Position numbers and translations under genes: made by a program
In this document: one piece after another, positions 21,200-34,569 of the stretch
Numbering within the stretch: the stretch's first letter is position 1
Layout of the letters: every line of letters starts with the position of its first letter
Notes under the pieces: generated by a model
What the model was told of the DNA's origin: nothing
Seen by the model: only the letters and a program-made list of their open reading frames with translations
Databases searched by the model: none
NCBI GenBank assembly: GCA_017958305.1
Contig: JAGDCW010000006.1
Span: 1 to 39,671, forward strand
DNA length: 39,671 bases
Origin: Bacteroidales bacterium
GTDB taxonomy: Bacteria; Bacteroidota; Bacteroidia; Bacteroidales; UBA1402
Direction: 5' to 3'

Positions 21200-21206
21200 A
21201 GTGACG

Positions 21207-21237
21207 CAAAAATAAGGATTTATGTCTGTTATCCCAA
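21207..21237 (-). promoter_or_regulatory. Promoter for recF-DUF721
   Basis: Minus-strand -7 box TATTTTTG (21207-21214) and -33 box TTGG (21234-21237) with a 19-base spacer, 8 bases upstream of the recF ATG. The leader must be very short. Confidence 0.65.
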
Positions 21238-21258
21238 GGCGTACTCTGGCTTTTTTGT

Positions 21259-21768
21259 CTAAAGCAACCACTCTCCCATAAAGAGGACTATCAGCGTATT
21301 GGTTACACTGACAACCATTGGAAGAAAGTCTTTTTTCTCGATTCCATAAATTAGTGACAAAACCACTGATGATGGACAAAAAAGCAGTAAATCAAGTCCA
21401 AATGGCCATGGGTGAATGTTATCATACAGCCAGTCTCCCAACAGTTTTGGCCCATATGGTCTAATATCATAGAGCAACGAAGCCCTTATTTCCGGTTCCA
21501 TAAACAGCACAGACAGAACTATGGAGACAATGCAGGCGATACACATAAATAAGAAAAACACTGTTTTTTCTTTTGACCTTACAAGGTAATACACCCAAAA
21601 AAAGATTGCCATGGCATAGAATGTGAGAATATCCCATGGATAGATTCCATGCATAAAACGCAGGTTGATAACAGGTAACAAATGAGCTACAACTTTGATA
21701 ATGATTTCGATGGAGACAATCAGCATCAAGCATTGCGAAACCTTTTTAAAATATGAGCACTTTTCCAT
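21259..21768 (-). CDS. Hypothetical AT-rich integral membrane protein
   Basis: 169 residues from the ATG at 21768 (MEKCSYFKKVSQCLMLIVS). I do not recognise the family. Hydrophobic helices lie at about 12-34, 44-61, 67-89, 121-140 and 149-167, giving roughly five TM segments. A PYGPKLLGDWLYDNIHPWPFG loop lies between helices 3 and 4 (about 100-120). The DNA is clearly richer in A/T than its neighbours and uses A/T-ending codons (ATA, AAA, TTA) that are rare in the rest of the window, which suggests recent acquisition or an orphan gene. It sits between recF and the hairpin-rich spacer at 21860-22031 and would be transcribed toward recF. The alternative start at 21918 lies in that spacer and is rejected. 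Confidence 0.65.
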   Translation of the reverse strand: MEKCSYFKKVSQCLMLIVSIEIIIKVVAHLLPVINLRFMHGIYPWDILTFYAMAIFFWVYYLVRSKEKTVFFLFMCIACIVSIVLSVLFMEPEIRASLLYDIRPYGPKLLGDWLYDNIHPWPFGLDLLLFCPSSVVLSLIYGIEKKDFLPMVVSVTNTLIVLFMGEWLL

Positions 21769-21859
21769 ATCAGTTTGAATTAAATGGTGACTGGGTAAAT
21801 TAATAACGGAATGATTTTTTTTTATTGTGTTTTGGATTAAAATACATGGCTCAGTTTGT

Positions 21860-22031
21860 GCTATCTTTCGCGCCACTCGCTGCGCTTCGCGGCGCAGGAG
21901 ATAGCTGCGCCTCGCCAATGCAAACTTGGACAGTTTGCATTACGGTCTTTCCGTTCTGCGCCCTTGCCAAAGCGAGCTTTGGGCGGACGCAGGCCGCAAA
22001 GCCCTGCAATCGCAAATTTAATTTGCGATTG
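21860..22031. repeat. Cluster of four hairpins in the spacer upstream of the TPR gene
   Basis: Four inverted repeats in 172 bases. (1) GCTATCT/AGATAGC at 21860-21866 and 21899-21905, with inner arms GCGCC/GGCGC at 21870-21874 and 21891-21895. (2) AATGCAAACT/AGTTTGCATT at 21917-21926 and 21932-21941. (3) CCAAAGC/GCTTTGG at 21967-21973 and 21976-21982. (4) CAATCGCAAAT/ATTTGCGATTG at 22007-22017 and 22021-22031. All arms listed are perfect. None is followed by a T run, so these are not ordinary terminators. The spacer between the genes at 21768 and 22106 (337 bases) holds this cluster, an AT-rich leader (21769-21850) and the promoters at 22022-22080; no convincing gene. Confidence 0.85.
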
Positions 22032-25876: not shown

Positions 25877-26629
25877 ATGTCTTCCCCTTCGTTCCGATTC
25901 AGACGTTTTGAAATCTTCCACGACAAGTGCGCGATGAAGGTGGGCATGGACGGAGTGACTTTGGGTGCCTGGGCCGTATCGCCCGAGGTGGCCAATGTCA
26001 TGGAGCGCCGCATACTGGACATCGGTACCGGTAGCGGCGTGGTGGCCCTGATGCTGGCCCAGAAATACCCCGAGGCCTTGATCGACGCGGTCGAAAAGGA
26101 CATTCCGGCCGCTTTCCAGGCTGTGCAAAATGTGGCCGCCAGCCCCTGGCCCGAAACGGTTCAGGTGTGTCAGGGCAGTTTTCCGGAAATCATGTCCCGT
26201 CTGCCGCTCAAGACCGAAGGCGAATACCACCTGATCGTTTGCAACCCCCCTTTCTTCAAGCAGGACCTCAAACCCATCAACCAGGCCCGCAGCCTGGCCC
26301 GTCACGCCGACGACCTGGATTTTGCCACCTTGGTGCGCGGAGTGGCGCCCTTGTTGCATCCCACGGGGCTGTTTTCGGTGATCCTGCCCTTCGAAGCCGG
26401 CGAGATATTCGAAGAGTATTGCTACGAATACCATCTGTATCTGCAGCGCTCCTGCCGGCTGGTGTCTGTGGCGGGCAAGCCTCCCAAACGCATCCTGATG
26501 ACTTTCGGCCGGGAGCGCCTGGAGGTTGTGCAGCGCGAAGAACTCACCGTGGCCGGTGAGCAGGGTGCCTACACCGACCAGTACCGCCGCCTGACCGAAG
26601 GTTACTACCTTCCCGAGGCTTTCAGGTAG
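25877..26629 (+). CDS. trmN6: tRNA1(Val) (adenine(37)-N6)-methyltransferase
   Basis: 250 residues. Class I SAM methyltransferase. The SAM-binding motif is RILDIGTGSGVVALMLAQ, followed by acidic IDAVEKD; the catalytic NPPFF (in LIVCNPPFFKQDLKP) is the N6-adenine signature of TrmN6/YfiC. The N-terminal FRFRRFEIFHDKCAMKVGMDGVTLG (blocks FEIFHDKCAMKVG and DGVTLGAW) is also typical. It starts directly after the upstream stop codon. The 3' end is followed by a bidirectional terminator shared with the convergent repeat-protein gene. Confidence 0.88.
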   Translation: MSSPSFRFRRFEIFHDKCAMKVGMDGVTLGAWAVSPEVANVMERRILDIGTGSGVVALMLAQKYPEALIDAVEKDIPAAFQAVQNVAASPWPETVQVCQGSFPEIMSRLPLKTEGEYHLIVCNPPFFKQDLKPINQARSLARHADDLDFATLVRGVAPLLHPTGLFSVILPFEAGEIFEEYCYEYHLYLQRSCRLVSVAGKPPKRILMTFGRERLEVVQREELTVAGEQGAYTDQYRRLTEGYYLPEAFR

Positions 26630-26745: not shown

Positions 26746-29700
26746 TTATCTGACGCTGACTTTCAAGGTTTCACCATCGACGGTGACCAGATAGATACCG
26801 GCGGGAACGTTGATGTCGATCCGTCCACGGGCGGTGGCTACCTGCTGGCCGGAGAGCGAGTGGATGCGGATGGCGGTCTGCTCGTTTTCACCTTCGACCT
26901 TAATCTGGCCTTCACCGGCCATAACTTTCCAAGTGGCCGTCTTGACAGCTTCGATACCCGTGGTGGGGCTGTAGGTATAGACCGTCTTCAGGATGTGGTC
27001 AATGCTCCAGGCGTTGTTCCTGTATTTCTCCATGATATCCAGTTCGTAGCTGGTAAGACTGGTATTGGGCATAAAATGCTCTTCGAGGGTGACACGGGTG
27101 TCCAGTTTCCAGTCTTTGGCAGTGGCGTCCCAGACCCAATTGGTCGTGACATCGCGGAACATCTCGGCCGTAGAAGTCGTCTGCTGCGAATATTTCGACG
27201 TTCCATACCAATCGGCAGCAGCCTTGTCCCATTCATATTCAGTGGTCATGATGCGCTTGCCGTCTGCATCATATTCGAATACTTCCTTATAGTCGCCGAT
27301 CCAGCACCAGGCGGCTTCGTCCCATATATAGGAGGCCCGCATGGAGGTGGTGTAGCTGGTGTTGTCGGCATAGGCGTATTCCTTCTTGTCGGAACCGCGC
27401 CAATTCTTGTGGTCGCTGTCCCAATTATACTGTTCCGAGTAGACTACACGGTCGTAGTCGTCGTAGAGGTAGCTGCCTTTGCGGTCGCCCACCCAGTCGC
27501 CATCCTGCCAGTCGTAATAGTAGGCATAGTAAATGGTGTTGCCGAAGCGGTCGCGGTGGACTTCCGATTTGCGTGTGCCCTTCCAGCTCCAGTTGTCGTA
27601 GTCCCACTGATAGTATTCGTAATAATCCAGGGTGTCGTTGCTTTCGCTATACGACCTGGAATAACCTCTCCAGTCGGATTTCGAGCTGTCCCAACTATAA
27701 AAGGTATAGCCCAATTGACCTCCTTCGGAGTCATAGACATACTCATATCTGCTGGAACCCCTCCAGTTGTTCTGGCTGTAGTCCCAGTAATAGCTGGCCT
27801 GGTAAATGGTGTTGTCGTATTCGTCGAAACGATACTCGTCTTTGGAGTAACCTCTCCAGCCGGGGATGCTGCTGTCCCAGGTGTAGGAGGCATCCATGGT
27901 CAAGCGGCCTTTTTCATCGTAAGATGATTCCTCCTTTTCATAGCCTACCCAGCTGCGGGAGCTTTCGTCCCAATTGTAACTGGTCTGTGCACTGATGTTG
28001 GTGGTCGGGTCGAAAACGGTTTCATTCTTGTAGTTGCCGACCCAGGTGGAATCCCAGTCACTCCAACTGTAGTTCTCATCCAGCAACAGATTGCCATAGG
28101 CATCCGTTACGTAGATTTTTTTGGAAGAGGCAACCCAGCCTTCGTCCATGTAATCCGGAGAGGAAACGGTCAGGGTCACGGTGTCGGCCTTGTAGGTATA
28201 GTCGCCTCTTTCATAGTCTCTCCATTCGGCCGGAATCATCTCGGCGATGTAGGAACTGTTCAGGTAGCTGACAAACTTGCCGCCTTCCATGGTGACCACG
28301 TGCCGGGAGATGGGAATCCACTCGTGACTGTCCTCGCTCCACATATACTGGTAGTTGTCTTTGTCCAGACCGCTTTCGGTATAGGTGTATTCATACTTAT
28401 AGGTAGGCGTCCAGTCATTGGAGGTTTCTCCCCAGACGTAGATGGTATAGCTGGTTTTCTTCTTTTGATCGTTGAAGGTATAGGCTTCGCGGCTCATTCC
28501 CTTCCACGACCGGGTCTCATAGTTCCATGAGTAGGAAGCATATTCTGTCAATATGCCCTGTTCGTCATAGGCCCATGCCTGGCGGTTGCCCATCCACCAT
28601 GTGTCATATTCCGTGTTCCATTCGTTGTAGGATATGGTTTCAGTGACATCACCGTTCTGGTTTCTGGTGGTATAGGTGGCGTAGTTGCCTTTCCAGGTGG
28701 TCTGTCCATCGGCGTAGCGACCGTTGAAAGTTTCATAACAAATCGTTTCACCTTCTTCGTCGTAAACCTGGTGAGTCTTGGCGTAGGGGTACCATACGTT
28801 CCGCTCGCCGTCCCATTCGTAGGCAATGGTTAGCGTATCGCGGCCTTGGGCATCGCAAAGGGTTTCACTCTTGTAATAGCCTCTCCAGGCATCATCACCC
28901 CAACTGTAGGAGGCATTCATGATCTGATGGCCGTTTTCATCGTAGTCGTATTCGTTTTTGCTCTGGCCGATCAGTTTGTTGTCGTACTGGTTGTAGGCAT
29001 ATTCCTCCGACAGCGTGCACTGCTTCCAATAACCTTCTTCGTCCTTGAAGTATTTGTACTGGCAGATGGTCTTTCCTGTCAGGAGATCGTTTTCATAGAC
29101 CAACATCAGGGTGTCACTGCCATAGGCATCGAACATGTTGATGCGTTTGCTGGTTTCCTTCCAGGCGTTGTCGGCGGCAACCCACTGATAGTAGGCTTGC
29201 AGGGAAGTTTGCCAATCCTGTGAGTATTCCCCGCCGTAGAAGGAAGTGGAGTCGGTGACAAGGGTGTATTCATATTCGGACTTGTCGGTCGGAACCCACT
29301 GGCCGTTCTGATACGTATAGTTGATGTATGTTTTGGTGCGGCCCGATTCCTCGTCGGTGAAATGTTCTTCCTTCCGGCCGGAATAAGGCTGCTGGTCGGC
29401 CAGTTCGGCTGCGGTGCGGGGCTCCTGGTAATTCATGATCCAATAGCCGATGTACATCGTGTCGCCTTGATAAACATCGCCGTGACGCTGGCTCAGATAC
29501 AGGGCTTGCAGATTTTCGCTGTAATACCAGGTCTGGGATTCCAGGTTGCGATAGTCTTTATAAATAAAGACGCTCTGGTCGGAAAAGATCCACTTCTGGA
29601 GCGATCTGTCGTAATACCAGTTTCTGCGATAGTTGGTGGTGAGACCTTCGGCATCGGGACCGACTTCCTTGTAGTCACTCTTGTAGTTGGGATACCAGGT

Positions 29701-30708
29701 GGTGTCGCTGTAATAGTAGCGTTCGGTGCAGTAGAATCCTTCGCTGTCTGTGCCGGTGATGGCTTTGCTGGAATAAACCCATCCCAGGCTGTCGCCCTCC
29801 CAATAAGAGGAGATCGAGGTGGTCATGCCGTCGGCGGCATATTCATAGGTGGTACGGCTGTTGGGATCCAACTTGAAGTAAGCGGTGTGGGTCACCGTGT
29901 CTTCATAGTGGTTTCTCTGATAATGGATGGTGCTAGTGGCCCGGCCTTGGCCGTCAAACTCCGATTCGGTCTTGCTTTCGATGATTTGGGCACCGAGGGT
30001 GTCGACGTGCATTTCCAGGGAGGTGACCAGGTTGCCGTCTTGATAGATGTATCTCGATACGTTCACCTCCACCCACTGCATGGTCTTGCTATCCAGGTAG
30101 GCGACAGTCCTTTCGTTGTTACTGCCATCATAAAGATCGGTCATGCGAACCAAAGCGTTGGCGGGAATAATCCGGGGATCCACTCCGAGGTAATTCTCCA
30201 CGTTGGTGATGTTGGTCTCCCGTTTGATGACGTTGCCTTCACTGTCGTAGGTAAAGGTTTGCGTGCCGATTTTGGCCAGTTCGTCCATGCTTTTGCCATA
30301 GAAGGCCTCGACCTTGTCGAGCCGCCACTCTTTGCTGCCCATGTACGGACCTTTCTTGAGGGACTGCTCTACCGGCTGCTGCTGCGGAGCGGCCACCGGA
30401 ACGTTTGCCACCTGCGGGGCCTCCAGTTTCATATGCCGGATGCGGGCTTCGATGTTTTGCTGCTCAGCGTCGATGCGCAGCTTGGAATCTCTGATTTCGG
30501 CTTCGCTACGGGCTATGTCCCTTTTGATCTCGGCGGCCCGGTCGTTGCGAATCTTCTCTTGCTCATCTATGGCAGCCTTGGCCTTTTTCAGAGCCACAAT
30601 ACCCTGAGCTTCCTCGGGAGCCGCCATCGTGCGGATGTTCTCAGCGGCAAGGGCCGTAAGAGCCGTGCCCAGGAACAATACTGTTGCAATAAGCGTAAAT
30701 CTTTTCAT
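26746..30708 (-). CDS. Large Trp/Tyr-rich repeat protein with T9SS-like C-terminal sorting domain
   Basis: 1320 residues, the largest gene in the window, in a one-gene unit. Signal peptide at 1-21 (MKRFTLIATVLFLGTALTALA). Charged helical, probable coiled coil, at about 35-98. From about 150 come YDxxG-type strands, and from about 300 to 1210 a long imperfect repeat of about 31 residues. The clean copies start at 911, 942, 973 and 1004, and a unit reads roughly YxWDxxxxxWxGxxKxExxYDxxGR plus six or seven residues. The last 50 residues (IRIHSLSGQQVA ... PAGIYLVTVDGETLKVSVR) resemble a type IX secretion C-terminal domain. By inference it is an extracellular beta-rich protein, possibly related to YD/RHS-like repeats. 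I do not recognise a named family and find no catalytic motif. Confidence 0.85.
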   Translation of the reverse strand: MKRFTLIATVLFLGTALTALAAENIRTMAAPEEAQGIVALKKAKAAIDEQEKIRNDRAAEIKRDIARSEAEIRDSKLRIDAEQQNIEARIRHMKLEAPQVANVPVAAPQQQPVEQSLKKGPYMGSKEWRLDKVEAFYGKSMDELAKIGTQTFTYDSEGNVIKRETNITNVENYLGVDPRIIPANALVRMTDLYDGSNNERTVAYLDSKTMQWVEVNVSRYIYQDGNLVTSLEMHVDTLGAQIIESKTESEFDGQGRATSTIHYQRNHYEDTVTHTAYFKLDPNSRTTYEYAADGMTTSISSYWEGDSLGWVYSSKAITGTDSEGFYCTERYYYSDTTWYPNYKSDYKEVGPDAEGLTTNYRRNWYYDRSLQKWIFSDQSVFIYKDYRNLESQTWYYSENLQALYLSQRHGDVYQGDTMYIGYWIMNYQEPRTAAELADQQPYSGRKEEHFTDEESGRTKTYINYTYQNGQWVPTDKSEYEYTLVTDSTSFYGGEYSQDWQTSLQAYYQWVAADNAWKETSKRINMFDAYGSDTLMLVYENDLLTGKTICQYKYFKDEEGYWKQCTLSEEYAYNQYDNKLIGQSKNEYDYDENGHQIMNASYSWGDDAWRGYYKSETLCDAQGRDTLTIAYEWDGERNVWYPYAKTHQVYDEEGETICYETFNGRYADGQTTWKGNYATYTTRNQNGDVTETISYNEWNTEYDTWWMGNRQAWAYDEQGILTEYASYSWNYETRSWKGMSREAYTFNDQKKKTSYTIYVWGETSNDWTPTYKYEYTYTESGLDKDNYQYMWSEDSHEWIPISRHVVTMEGGKFVSYLNSSYIAEMIPAEWRDYERGDYTYKADTVTLTVSSPDYMDEGWVASSKKIYVTDAYGNLLLDENYSWSDWDSTWVGNYKNETVFDPTTNISAQTSYNWDESSRSWVGYEKEESSYDEKGRLTMDASYTWDSSIPGWRGYSKDEYRFDEYDNTIYQASYYWDYSQNNWRGSSRYEYVYDSEGGQLGYTFYSWDSSKSDWRGYSRSYSESNDTLDYYEYYQWDYDNWSWKGTRKSEVHRDRFGNTIYYAYYYDWQDGDWVGDRKGSYLYDDYDRVVYSEQYNWDSDHKNWRGSDKKEYAYADNTSYTTSMRASYIWDEAAWCWIGDYKEVFEYDADGKRIMTTEYEWDKAAADWYGTSKYSQQTTSTAEMFRDVTTNWVWDATAKDWKLDTRVTLEEHFMPNTSLTSYELDIMEKYRNNAWSIDHILKTVYTYSPTTGIEAVKTATWKVMAGEGQIKVEGENEQTAIRIHSLSGQQVATARGRIDINVPAGIYLVTVDGETLKVSVR
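27079..29811 (-). repeat. Degenerate 31-residue (93-bp) coding repeats
   Basis: Units keyed on a Tyr-x-Trp-Asp pair, a second Trp-x-Gly about 7 residues later, and a Tyr-Asp-x-x-Gly pair. Exact 93-bp spacing holds between residues 911, 942, 973 and 1004; neighbours have small insertions or deletions. Degenerate copies extend up to about residue 300. At DNA level, CCTCTCCAG and near matches recur at the W-x-G position on the plus strand. Confidence 0.82.
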
Positions 30709-31008
30709 ACTGAAAGTTGAAAATAAAGATTAAACATTTGCCGCTCTGCCAGTTCCGTGGATGAATCAGGTTCGGTTGCGGCCAAGTGGCAGACGGACAT
30801 TTAACCGACAAAGAAACACATTTTTTTTATTATACGATGCAATTCCGCCCAAAAATTATCATTAATTAATCGTTTGAGTTTCAGTGTCTGCACGAAAAAT
30901 CGCTTCTCTTGGGCTTTCCGTGGAAAAAGAGGGTTTGAACCAGAGGGCGGACTCTTGTACGGCTGTCGAAAAAGCATTACCTTCGCGGCTTGAAACAAGC
31001 TCATTGCC
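30709..31008. other. Intergenic spacer between the repeat-protein gene and ileS
   Basis: A 300-base AT-rich divergent spacer. It holds the ileS promoter at 30955-30985 (separate entry). For the minus-strand repeat gene, TATTTTCA (30718-30725) is only a weak -7 candidate with no -33 box. No gene, tRNA or clear hairpin was seen. Confidence 0.6.
30955..30985 (+). promoter_or_regulatory. Promoter for ileS
   Basis: TTG at 30955-30957 and -7-like TACCTTCG at 30978-30985, 20 bases apart, ending 23 bases before the ileS ATG. The -7 box differs from TAnnTTTG by one base. Confidence 0.5.
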
Positions 31009-34000
31009 ATGTCAGAAAAATTTGCTGAATATTCCCGGTTCGATCTCTCCGCCATCAACAAGGAGATGCTCCGTGACTGGGATGCGAAAGATGTCTTCCG
31101 AAAGAGTACGGAATTGCGTGAGGGCCAGCCTTCCTTTGTCTTCTACGAAGGTCCCCCCTCGGCCAACGGCATGCCGGGTATCCATCACATGATAGCCCGC
31201 TCCATCAAGGACATCTTCTGCCGCTACAAAACCATGAAGGGATACCTGGTGAACCGCAAGGCCGGCTGGGACACGCACGGACTGCCTGTCGAACTGGGCG
31301 TGGAAAAGAGCCTGGGCATCACCAAGGAGGATATCGGCCGCAAGATTTCGGTCGAAGACTACAATGCCGCCTGCCGTCGCGATGTGATGAAGTTCACGCG
31401 CGAATGGGAGGACCTGACCCGCAAAATGGGATACTGGGTCGATATGAAAGACCCCTACATCACCTATGACAACCGCTATATCGAGACCCTGTGGTGGCTG
31501 CTCAAGCAGTTGTACGACAAGGGCCTCCTTTACAAGGGATACACCATCCAGCCTTATTCGCCCGCTGCCGGCACCGGTCTGAGCACGCACGAGCTGAACC
31601 AGCCCGGCTGCTACCGCGATGTGAAGGACACCACCGTCACGGCTTTGTTCCGCATGACGGATCCCCGTCCGGAGATGACCGGCTGGGGCACGCCCTGCTT
31701 CGTGGCCTGGACCACGACTCCCTGGACCCTGCCTTCGAACACGGCGCTTTGCGTCGGTCCGGAGATCGACTATGTCGCTGTCCAGACTTACAATCCCTAC
31801 ACGGCCGACAAGGTCACCCTGGTCATGGCCGAAAGCTGCGTGGCCTCCTATTTCAAGGCGGAAGGGGCCACGGCCGATATGGAAGCCTTCCAGCCAGGCG
31901 ACAAGGTGGTGCCCTACCGGCTGCTGCCGCAGCGCTACAAAGGCTCGTCCCTGGTTGGCATGAAATATGTCCAGCTGATGCCCTGGGTCAAGCCGCTGGA
32001 GAAACTCGACGGCAATGCGCCCGCCTATGTGAAGGCCGCCGCCGAGTCTCATCCCGACACGGTGTTTGCCGTCGGCAAGGACACCTATGTGGAGATGTCG
32101 GCCGAGGCCTTCCGGGTGATTCCCGGCGACTATGTCACCACAGAGGAAGGGACGGGCATCGTGCATATCGCCCCCACTTTCGGTGCCGACGATGCCAAGG
32201 TGGGCAAGGCCTCGGGTGTGCCTTCGCTGTTCATGGTCAACCTTTTGGGCGAGACCCGTCCGATGGTCGATCTGACGGGCAAATACTACCTGCTGGCCGA
32301 TTGTGCGCCTGAATTTACGGCCCGTTGTGTGGACGAGGCCGCCTACCGCGTCCACGAGGGAGAATATGTCAAGAATGCCTACGCTCCCGAGTTCAACCCC
32401 GGCGGCAAGTACGACGAAACCGCCGCTGCCAAGGCCGAAGACCTGAACATCCGCATCTGCATGGAAATGAAGCAGGCCGGTCAGGCCCTGCGCATCGAGA
32501 AACATGTCCACAATTATCCGCATTGCTGGCGTACCGACAAGCCGGTGCTCTATTATCCGCTCGATTCGTGGTTCATCCGCTCGACGGCCTGCCGCGACCG
32601 CATGATCGAACTGAACCGCACCATCAACTGGAAGCCGGAATCCACCGGCAGCGGCCGTTTCGGCAAATGGCTCGAGAACCTGAACGACTGGAACCTGAGC
32701 CGTTCGCGCTACTGGGGCACTCCGCTGCCCGTCTGGCGCAACCGCGACACCCGCGAGGAAATCTGCATCGGCAGTGTCGAGGAACTCTACCAGGAAATCG
32801 AGAAGTCGGTGGCTGCCGGCCTGATGAAGGAGAATCCTTACAAGAAGCTCGGCTTCGTGCCCGGCCTGATGGACAAGGCCAACTACGACAAGATAGACCT
32901 GCACCGCCCCTATGTCGACGACATCGTGCTGGTGTCGGCCTCTGGACAGCCCATGCATCGCGAATCCGACCTGATCGATGTCTGGTTCGACTCGGGGGCC
33001 ATGCCTTATGCCCAGATCCATTATCCTTTCGAAAACAAGGAGGCTTTCGACAAACGGCAGATCTACCCGGCCGATTTCATTGCCGAAGGCGTGGACCAGA
33101 CCCGTGGCTGGTTCTTCACCCTGCACGCTCTGGCCACGATGGTTTTCGACTCGGTGGCCTACAAGAATGTGGTGTCCAACGGCTTGGTGCTCGACAAGAA
33201 CGGCAACAAGATGTCCAAGCGTCTGGGCAATGCCATCGATCCTTTCGGCGCCATCGAGCAGTACGGCTCCGACCCCTTGCGCTGGTACATGATCACCAAC
33301 GCTTCGCCCTGGGACAACTTGCGCTTCGACACCGAAGGGGTGGAGGAAGTCCGTCGCAAATTCTTCGGCACGCTCTACAACACCTATTCGTTCTTCGCCC
33401 TGTATGCCAATGTGGACGGCTTCACCGGCCGTGAGGAGGAGATTCCGGTGGCCGAGCGCCCCGAGATCGACCGTTGGATCATCTCCCTGCTGCACACCTT
33501 GATCCGTCAGACCGACCAGAGTTATGCCGATTATGAGGCCACCCGCTCGGGACGCGCCATTGCCGAGTTTGTCGGCGAGAACCTGAGCAACTGGTATGTC
33601 CGCCTCAACCGCAAGCGTTTCTGGGGTGGCGAAATGACCCGCGACAAGCTGGCTGCCTACCAGACGCTCTACACCTGCCTCGACACGGTGGCCCGCCTCA
33701 TGGCGCCCATCGCCCCTTTCTATGCCGACCGGCTTTTCCTCGACCTGAATGCCGTCACCGGCCGCGACCAAAGCGAATCGGTCCACCTGGCCGCCTATCC
33801 CGTGTTCGACGAACAATTGATCGACGAAGACCTGAACACCCGCATGCAGCTGGCCCAGCAGATTTCGTCGATGGTGTTGTCGCTGCGCAAGAAGGTCAAC
33901 ATCAAGGTGCGCCAGCCCCTGGCGGCCATCATCATCCCCGAAGCCGATCCCGCCCGGAAGGCGGCCATCGAGGCTGTCCGCGACCTGATCCTCTCCGAGG

Positions 34001-34569
34001 TCAACGTCAAGGAGTTGCGCTTCGTGGACAACGCCGCCGGTGTGCTGATCAAGCGTATCAAGCCTGATTTCAAAAAGTTAGGCCCAAAATGCGGCAAACA
34101 GATGAAATCTGTGGCGGAAATGTTGAAGAATCTGGAGCAAGATACTATCTTTGCTTTCGAGAAGACTGGTTGCCTCGACCTGTCGGTGGACGGGCAGAGC
34201 ATCCGCGTCGAAGCCTCCGATGTGGAATTCCTTTCGGAAGACATTCCCGGCTGGCTGGTGGCCAACGACGGCCGCCTGACCGTGGCCCTGGAAGTGGAGA
34301 TTTCCGAGGAGTTACGCGAAGAAGGCCTGGCGCGCGAACTGGTGAACCGGATCCAGAACCTGCGCAAGTCGCAGGGATTCGAAATCACCGACCGCATCCG
34401 CATCCAATTGACTCACCATGAAGCGACCGACACGGCCGTGATGCACTGGCGGCAATACATTGCCTCCCAGACCTTGGCCGAATCGGTGACACTGGAGGAC
34501 AGCCTCCCCGACGGCACCTCCCTCGACATGGAAGAGGCCGCCCTCATGGTAAAAGTGACGAAAGTCTGA
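31009..34569 (+). CDS. ileS: Isoleucyl-tRNA synthetase
   Basis: 1186 residues, of the long, eukaryote-like class usual in Bacteroidota. Class I synthetase: the HIGH-type motif is Pro56-Gly-Ile-His59-His60 within PSANGMPGIHH, and KMSKR is at 734-738 (NGNKMSKRLGN). Editing-domain blocks (WTTTPWTLPSNTAL, GTGIVHIAPTFGADD) and the anticodon-binding region (LSNWYVRLNRKRFWGG) are present, followed by a C-terminal extension (ELREEGLARELVNRIQNLRK). It attaches isoleucine to tRNA-Ile and edits valine. It heads a cluster with the DksA-like gene, lspA and a DUF4296 lipoprotein, 27 bases before the first. Confidence 0.98.
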   Translation: MSEKFAEYSRFDLSAINKEMLRDWDAKDVFRKSTELREGQPSFVFYEGPPSANGMPGIHHMIARSIKDIFCRYKTMKGYLVNRKAGWDTHGLPVELGVEKSLGITKEDIGRKISVEDYNAACRRDVMKFTREWEDLTRKMGYWVDMKDPYITYDNRYIETLWWLLKQLYDKGLLYKGYTIQPYSPAAGTGLSTHELNQPGCYRDVKDTTVTALFRMTDPRPEMTGWGTPCFVAWTTTPWTLPSNTALCVGPEIDYVAVQTYNPYTADKVTLVMAESCVASYFKAEGATADMEAFQPGDKVVPYRLLPQRYKGSSLVGMKYVQLMPWVKPLEKLDGNAPAYVKAAAESHPDTVFAVGKDTYVEMSAEAFRVIPGDYVTTEEGTGIVHIAPTFGADDAKVGKASGVPSLFMVNLLGETRPMVDLTGKYYLLADCAPEFTARCVDEAAYRVHEGEYVKNAYAPEFNPGGKYDETAAAKAEDLNIRICMEMKQAGQALRIEKHVHNYPHCWRTDKPVLYYPLDSWFIRSTACRDRMIELNRTINWKPESTGSGRFGKWLENLNDWNLSRSRYWGTPLPVWRNRDTREEICIGSVEELYQEIEKSVAAGLMKENPYKKLGFVPGLMDKANYDKIDLHRPYVDDIVLVSASGQPMHRESDLIDVWFDSGAMPYAQIHYPFENKEAFDKRQIYPADFIAEGVDQTRGWFFTLHALATMVFDSVAYKNVVSNGLVLDKNGNKMSKRLGNAIDPFGAIEQYGSDPLRWYMITNASPWDNLRFDTEGVEEVRRKFFGTLYNTYSFFALYANVDGFTGREEEIPVAERPEIDRWIISLLHTLIRQTDQSYADYEATRSGRAIAEFVGENLSNWYVRLNRKRFWGGEMTRDKLAAYQTLYTCLDTVARLMAPIAPFYADRLFLDLNAVTGRDQSESVHLAAYPVFDEQLIDEDLNTRMQLAQQISSMVLSLRKKVNIKVRQPLAAIIIPEADPARKAAIEAVRDLILSEVNVKELRFVDNAAGVLIKRIKPDFKKLGPKCGKQMKSVAEMLKNLEQDTIFAFEKTGCLDLSVDGQSIRVEASDVEFLSEDIPGWLVANDGRLTVALEVEISEELREEGLARELVNRIQNLRKSQGFEITDRIRIQLTHHEATDTAVMHWRQYIASQTLAESVTLEDSLPDGTSLDMEEAALMVKVTKV

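Follow-up and report, generated by a model that had tools for sequence, protein, structure and literature searches.

Locus and protein architecture

The window, a stretch of 39,671 nucleotides from a Bacteroidales bacterium (assembly GCA_017958305.1, contig JAGDCW010000006.1), carries on its minus strand an open frame of 1320 codons that encodes a 1320-aa repeat protein (Table 1). The source is a gut bacterium, probably of the rumen. The repeat gene is flanked by ileS and by a methyltransferase gene, here called trmN6, both on the opposite strand, and the neighbours that we examined are mostly housekeeping genes, none of them informative on function. Among six species of the genus, the gene is present at this site in three, namely the species of the window (G000), G003 and G004, and it is cleanly absent from G001, G002 and G005, in which trmN6 and ileS are directly adjacent. 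A contig scan for orthologs returned only one, 98% identical, on a G004 contig from a goat reticulum MAG. Compared with G004, about 60 extra bases are inserted in the intergenic segment between the repeat gene and ileS (30709-30800). Phage origin was rejected, as tblastn found no match among 50,697 phage records.

The protein opens with a signal peptide, MKRFTLIATVLFLGTALTALAA, recognised by eye, and a hydrophobic leader is also present in the G003 ortholog and in nearly all relatives. The stretch that follows is rich in charge (D/E/K/R = 47%), as a preliminary description of this DNA had stated, and helix-like; the coiled coil that it considered probable was rejected, because the heptad pattern at residues 40-98 is no better than in shuffled sequences (p = 0.54). 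The same description placed about 900 residues in repeats. The repeats are real, but they extend over some 1080 residues (roughly 120-1205), of which the first 480 are irregular. Its reading of a 1320-residue frame with a signal peptide and no enzyme motif agrees with the open frame, the clear leader and profile searches that match no enzyme family. The gene is real, and the observation of it was correctly described.

Table 1. Coordinates of the repeat gene, its parts and its neighbours in the window
Feature	Position	Strand	Basis
Whole gene, 1320-aa T9SS-type DUF3836-repeat protein	26746..30708	-	ORF and profile matches
Sec signal peptide, residues 1-21 (MKRFTLIATVLFLGTALTALA)	30646..30708	-	Sequence; hydrophobic leader in relatives
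Charged, helix-like spacer, residues 22-118	30355..30645	-	Sequence; heptad test
Irregular DUF3836-like repeats, residues 119-600	28909..30354	-	Unit HMM
More regular 31-residue DUF3836-type repeats, residues 601-1205	27094..28908	-	Autocorrelation, unit HMM, PDB profile match, AlphaFold2
C-terminal sorting-type domain, residues 1246-1320 (DUF6383 match 1251-1318)	26749..26973	-	Profile match
Low-divergence tract common to G004, codons 1-1236 (98.7% DNA identity; putative recent inter-species exchange)	27001..30708	-	
Methyltransferase (MTS domain; called trmN6 here), adjoins ileS in species without the repeat gene	25877..26629	+	
ileS, isoleucyl-tRNA synthetase, oriented divergently from the repeat gene	31009..34569	+	

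The 31-residue repeat

The period of 31 residues given in the preliminary description lies far beyond shuffled controls. The autocorrelation of Trp over residues 141-1190 is best at 31 (0.34), followed by 7 (0.28) and then by 62, and the mean BLOSUM62 self-score at a shift of 31 (-0.05) exceeds the highest value, -0.54, that composition-preserving shuffles reached (100 shuffles, all shifts from 5 to 139). An HMM of the unit, seeded with seven regular units and then refined by iteration across relatives, detects 22-23 units in the protein (domain E ≤ 0.1) and no significant unit in 380 shuffled homologs (best E 0.73). Neighbouring units in the protein and its relatives are spaced by 31 residues in 88 of 133 pairs. 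The consensus of the unit is Y-x-W-D-x5-W-x-G-x2-K-x-E-Y-x-Y-D-x-x-G-N-L-T, and that of the HMM is YSWDSSTNSWVGSSKYEYTYDANGNLT plus about four residues. In the G003 ortholog, which is 36% identical, Trp and Gly are preferentially kept (81% and 68%, respectively), whereas Val, Ile, Arg and Asn are kept at 19% or less. Judged by strand alternation rather than from coordinates, Y1, W3, W10, Y18 and Y20 of the unit would lie on one face, with K/R15 (86%) and E17 (56%) on the opposite face. In one relative, L011 (G024:C12), the tandem units are nearly perfect, with QEWNDSTLIWVNEYKDSSSYDVNNN repeated, which suggests recent duplication of units.

Assignment to DUF3836

The preliminary description took the repeat for an undescribed family, and this view was ruled out by matches to DUF3836 (PF12930) in Pfam, among the relatives and in the PDB. 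Membership by profile score is marginal for the 1320-aa protein alone, in which one stretch reaches 25.3 bits in the genome search (cut-off 25) and the whole protein 20.6 bits in hmmscan, under the cut-off. It is firm when relatives are included: 17 of the 18 aligned proteins (the 1320-aa protein and 17 relatives from its order) match DUF3836, with a best E of 2e-14. A profile of paired units searched against all PDB sequences returned, at E ≤ 0.01, only 4r03 (4e-7), 3msw (9.5e-6) and 4r8o (1.6e-3); Foldseek titles label 4r03 and 4r8o as DUF3836 and 3msw as of unknown function. Since the unit profile finds DUF3836 structures and the relatives match DUF3836, both Trp positions are a feature of that family, which already has solved structures. 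The word "undescribed" therefore falls, and "unknown function" stands: DUF3836 is functionally uncharacterised. We found no paper naming DUF3836 in the literature searched and none on BF3112, a query on the tryptophan-rich repeat returned no paper, and no function is known for DUF3836.

The solved members (4r03, 4r8o and, by sequence, 3msw) share the 31-residue unit, both Trp positions with their W-x6-W spacing and the Y-D turn, with sequence and fold searches in agreement. They are small, however, with about 100-145 residues in crystals and about 3 units, a size that is typical of the family but not strictly defining. At 22-23 units in 1320 aa, together with a T9SS-type tail, the present protein is therefore a long tandem variant of DUF3836. 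It shares this length with the G003 ortholog, likewise of about 1320 residues and 22-23 units, whereas other relatives carry 3-13 units in about 150-590 residues. Closest in layout are proteins of other Bacteroidales (e.g. L005, L007, L008, L009, L012 and L017) that combine a signal peptide, tandem 31-residue units and a C-terminal Por_Secre_tail sorting domain. These have 7-13 units in about 450-550 aa and end in a YPNP-type tail, whereas the 1320-aa protein is over twice that length, includes a charged spacer and ends in a tail of the DUF6383 type. A genome profile search found no DUF3836 gene other than this one in its own genome. The repeat family is thus already known, though of uncharacterised function, and the protein is a long T9SS-tailed variant of it with signs of allelic exchange. 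In G005, L065 (2060-3685 of C20) combines a DUF3836/YD-like unit with leucine-rich repeats, BspA-like when read by eye, and is cut by the contig end.

C-terminal domain and type IX secretion

The T9SS-like C-terminus of the preliminary description is borne out by a match to DUF6383 (PF19910) at residues 1251-1318 (E 1.2e-7, 32.2 bits, cut-off 23.7), with no notable difference from that family, although the standard tail models remain under their cut-offs (TIGR04183, 18.2 of 23 bits; PF18962, 14.6 of 27 bits). A P. gingivalis study (PMC9722745) refers to DUF6383 as a putative T9SS targeting domain. In the C-terminal 75 residues, the motifs G-x-x-V, GxYxVxV and terminal K-V are retained and YPNP is missing. 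Further tail-bearing proteins were found in this genome, and the tail resembles theirs. Por_Secre_tail occurs in 13 of the 18 aligned proteins. The layout fits T9SS cargo, with a signal peptide seen by eye and a tail at the extreme C-terminus. The genome also encodes the machinery, with SprA (2675 bits), GldM (504 bits) and the PorU sortase (1147 bits) all over cut-off. Because the tail carries these motifs and the DUF6383 match, that domain is tied to T9SS in the cited study, and SprA, GldM and PorU are present, export of the protein by type IX secretion is likely.

Fold of the repeats

AlphaFold2 models residues 850-1205 (356 residues, 11 units), from an alignment of window and L021 rows only, as a beta meander in which each unit supplies two of the about 24 strands (pLDDT 83, pTM 0.59), in line with the beta-rich repeat proposed earlier. 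A model of the whole repeat region had a pLDDT of 29.7 and was discarded.

The YD/RHS-like look noted in the preliminary description is also reflected in this model, as Foldseek places Rhs cores first by E-value (about 1e-9), with 4r03, 3msw and 4r8o also matched. The repeats might accordingly curl into a closed, hollow cocoon of the Rhs/YD type, lined by the aromatic face and used to store or transport something. Both repeat types form two strands in each unit and have the Tyr-Asp-x-x-Gly turn, six of the 18 aligned proteins touch Pfam RHS_repeat (best 1.2e-7), and the TIGR01643 YD repeat is found in 2 relatives. However, superposition on the Rhs cores gives low TM-scores (about 0.12-0.26) and an rmsd near 30 A, so that the similarity is local only, and unit numbers in relatives go down to 3-13, probably too few for known shells. 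The 1320-aa protein itself differs from Rhs/YD repeats in its two extra Trp positions and its 31-residue unit. It has no RHS_repeat (PF05593) match at E ≤ 10, no DPxGL core motif was seen in the translation, and nothing follows the C-terminal domain, which is of the sorting type rather than a variable toxin end. On these grounds we rejected membership in Rhs, and we regard a closed shell as improbable.

Divergence between species

To the G003 ortholog the repeat gene is distant, but to that of G004 it is very close. Between G000 and G004, DNA identity of 98-100% starts at about the start codon and stops before the C-terminal domain, whose codons are 90% identical; the 3' breakpoint falls between codons 1096 and 1237. 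Synonymous codon differences number 21 in codons 1-1236 versus 14 in the last 84. For the same pair of species, dS is 0.28-0.44 in the neighbouring genes and 0.04 in the repeat gene, about ten-fold lower, and dN/dS of the repeat gene is about 0.3. We rejected a uniformly fast-evolving gene, because a constant high rate is incompatible with this low G000/G004 divergence alongside the 36% identity between G000 and G003, whereas both can be explained if the exposed part of the gene recently passed between the lineages of G000 and G004. The pattern thus suggests such an exchange; an error of MAG assembly or binning could also produce it, since the genomes are drafts of many contigs.

Taken further, the trmN6-ileS interval might be a site of surface-protein exchange, at which T9SS-tailed repeat proteins are gained and lost, and where recombination between species replaces the exposed part, from the signal peptide to the last repeat, but leaves the sorting tail in place as a fixed anchor. 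We put this forward tentatively, as less likely than not.

Proposed role

We consider it likely that the protein is a secreted, probably surface-anchored beta-ribbon with a role in binding. The signal peptide would direct passage through Sec, the DUF6383-type domain would hand the protein over to the type IX secretion system, and PorU may then remove the tail and attach the protein to the surface. Each of the roughly 23 DUF3836-type units would contribute two antiparallel strands, Y-x-W-D and then W-x-G-x2-K-x-E-Y-x-Y-D, connected through polar turns and D-x-x-G turns. Stacked together, the units would form a single long meander, with Trp and Tyr making one face aromatic and Lys and Glu making the other polar. 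Such a ribbon probably binds something, most plausibly a glycan or neighbouring cells, and it is perhaps under antigenic diversification. The role could be adhesion to plant fibre or to host or neighbour glycans, or that of a variable surface antigen.

Narrower forms of this explanation can be weighed against the same data. The protein may be a carbohydrate-binding fibre anchor, whose aromatic face serves as a repeated sugar platform for plant polysaccharide. The aromatics at unit positions 1, 3, 10, 18 and 20, on one face by strand alternation, are consistent with this, as is the nearly identical ortholog in the goat reticulum MAG, and a rumen Bacteroidetes is reported to link cellulases to T9SS (PMC5831590). 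Yet the aromatics may merely pack the fold, the protein matches no CBM family, and no carbohydrate enzyme occurs among the examined neighbours, so that we would not favour this form as it stands. A comparable, and equally guarded, degree of belief goes to a variable surface antigen, or a target of phage or predators, in which diversity itself is the point and which is exchanged between species. It would account for the presence of the gene in only half of the species, for its low identity to the G003 ortholog, and for the low synonymous divergence from G004 that ends before the C-terminal domain. Against it, dN/dS between G000 and G004 is not above 1, and the genomes are few and open to assembly or binning error.

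For the broader reading, a binding ribbon at the surface, the long tandem arrays on T9SS-tailed proteins make the cell surface the probable location of the family, and DUF3836 gains a testable role in binding through its aromatic face. Presence or absence together with swapping would place DUF3836 arrays among the variable surface proteins of rumen Bacteroidales.

Low divergence is also seen outside the repeat gene. Compared with L060 of G003, ileS has a dS of 0.31 and its neighbours 0.63-1.03, so that ileS itself looks exchanged between lineages. Positions 21200-22000 of the window are 98.5-99.5% identical to L064 of G004 amid a background of 83-93%, and this segment is perhaps an exchanged tract or a constrained non-coding element.
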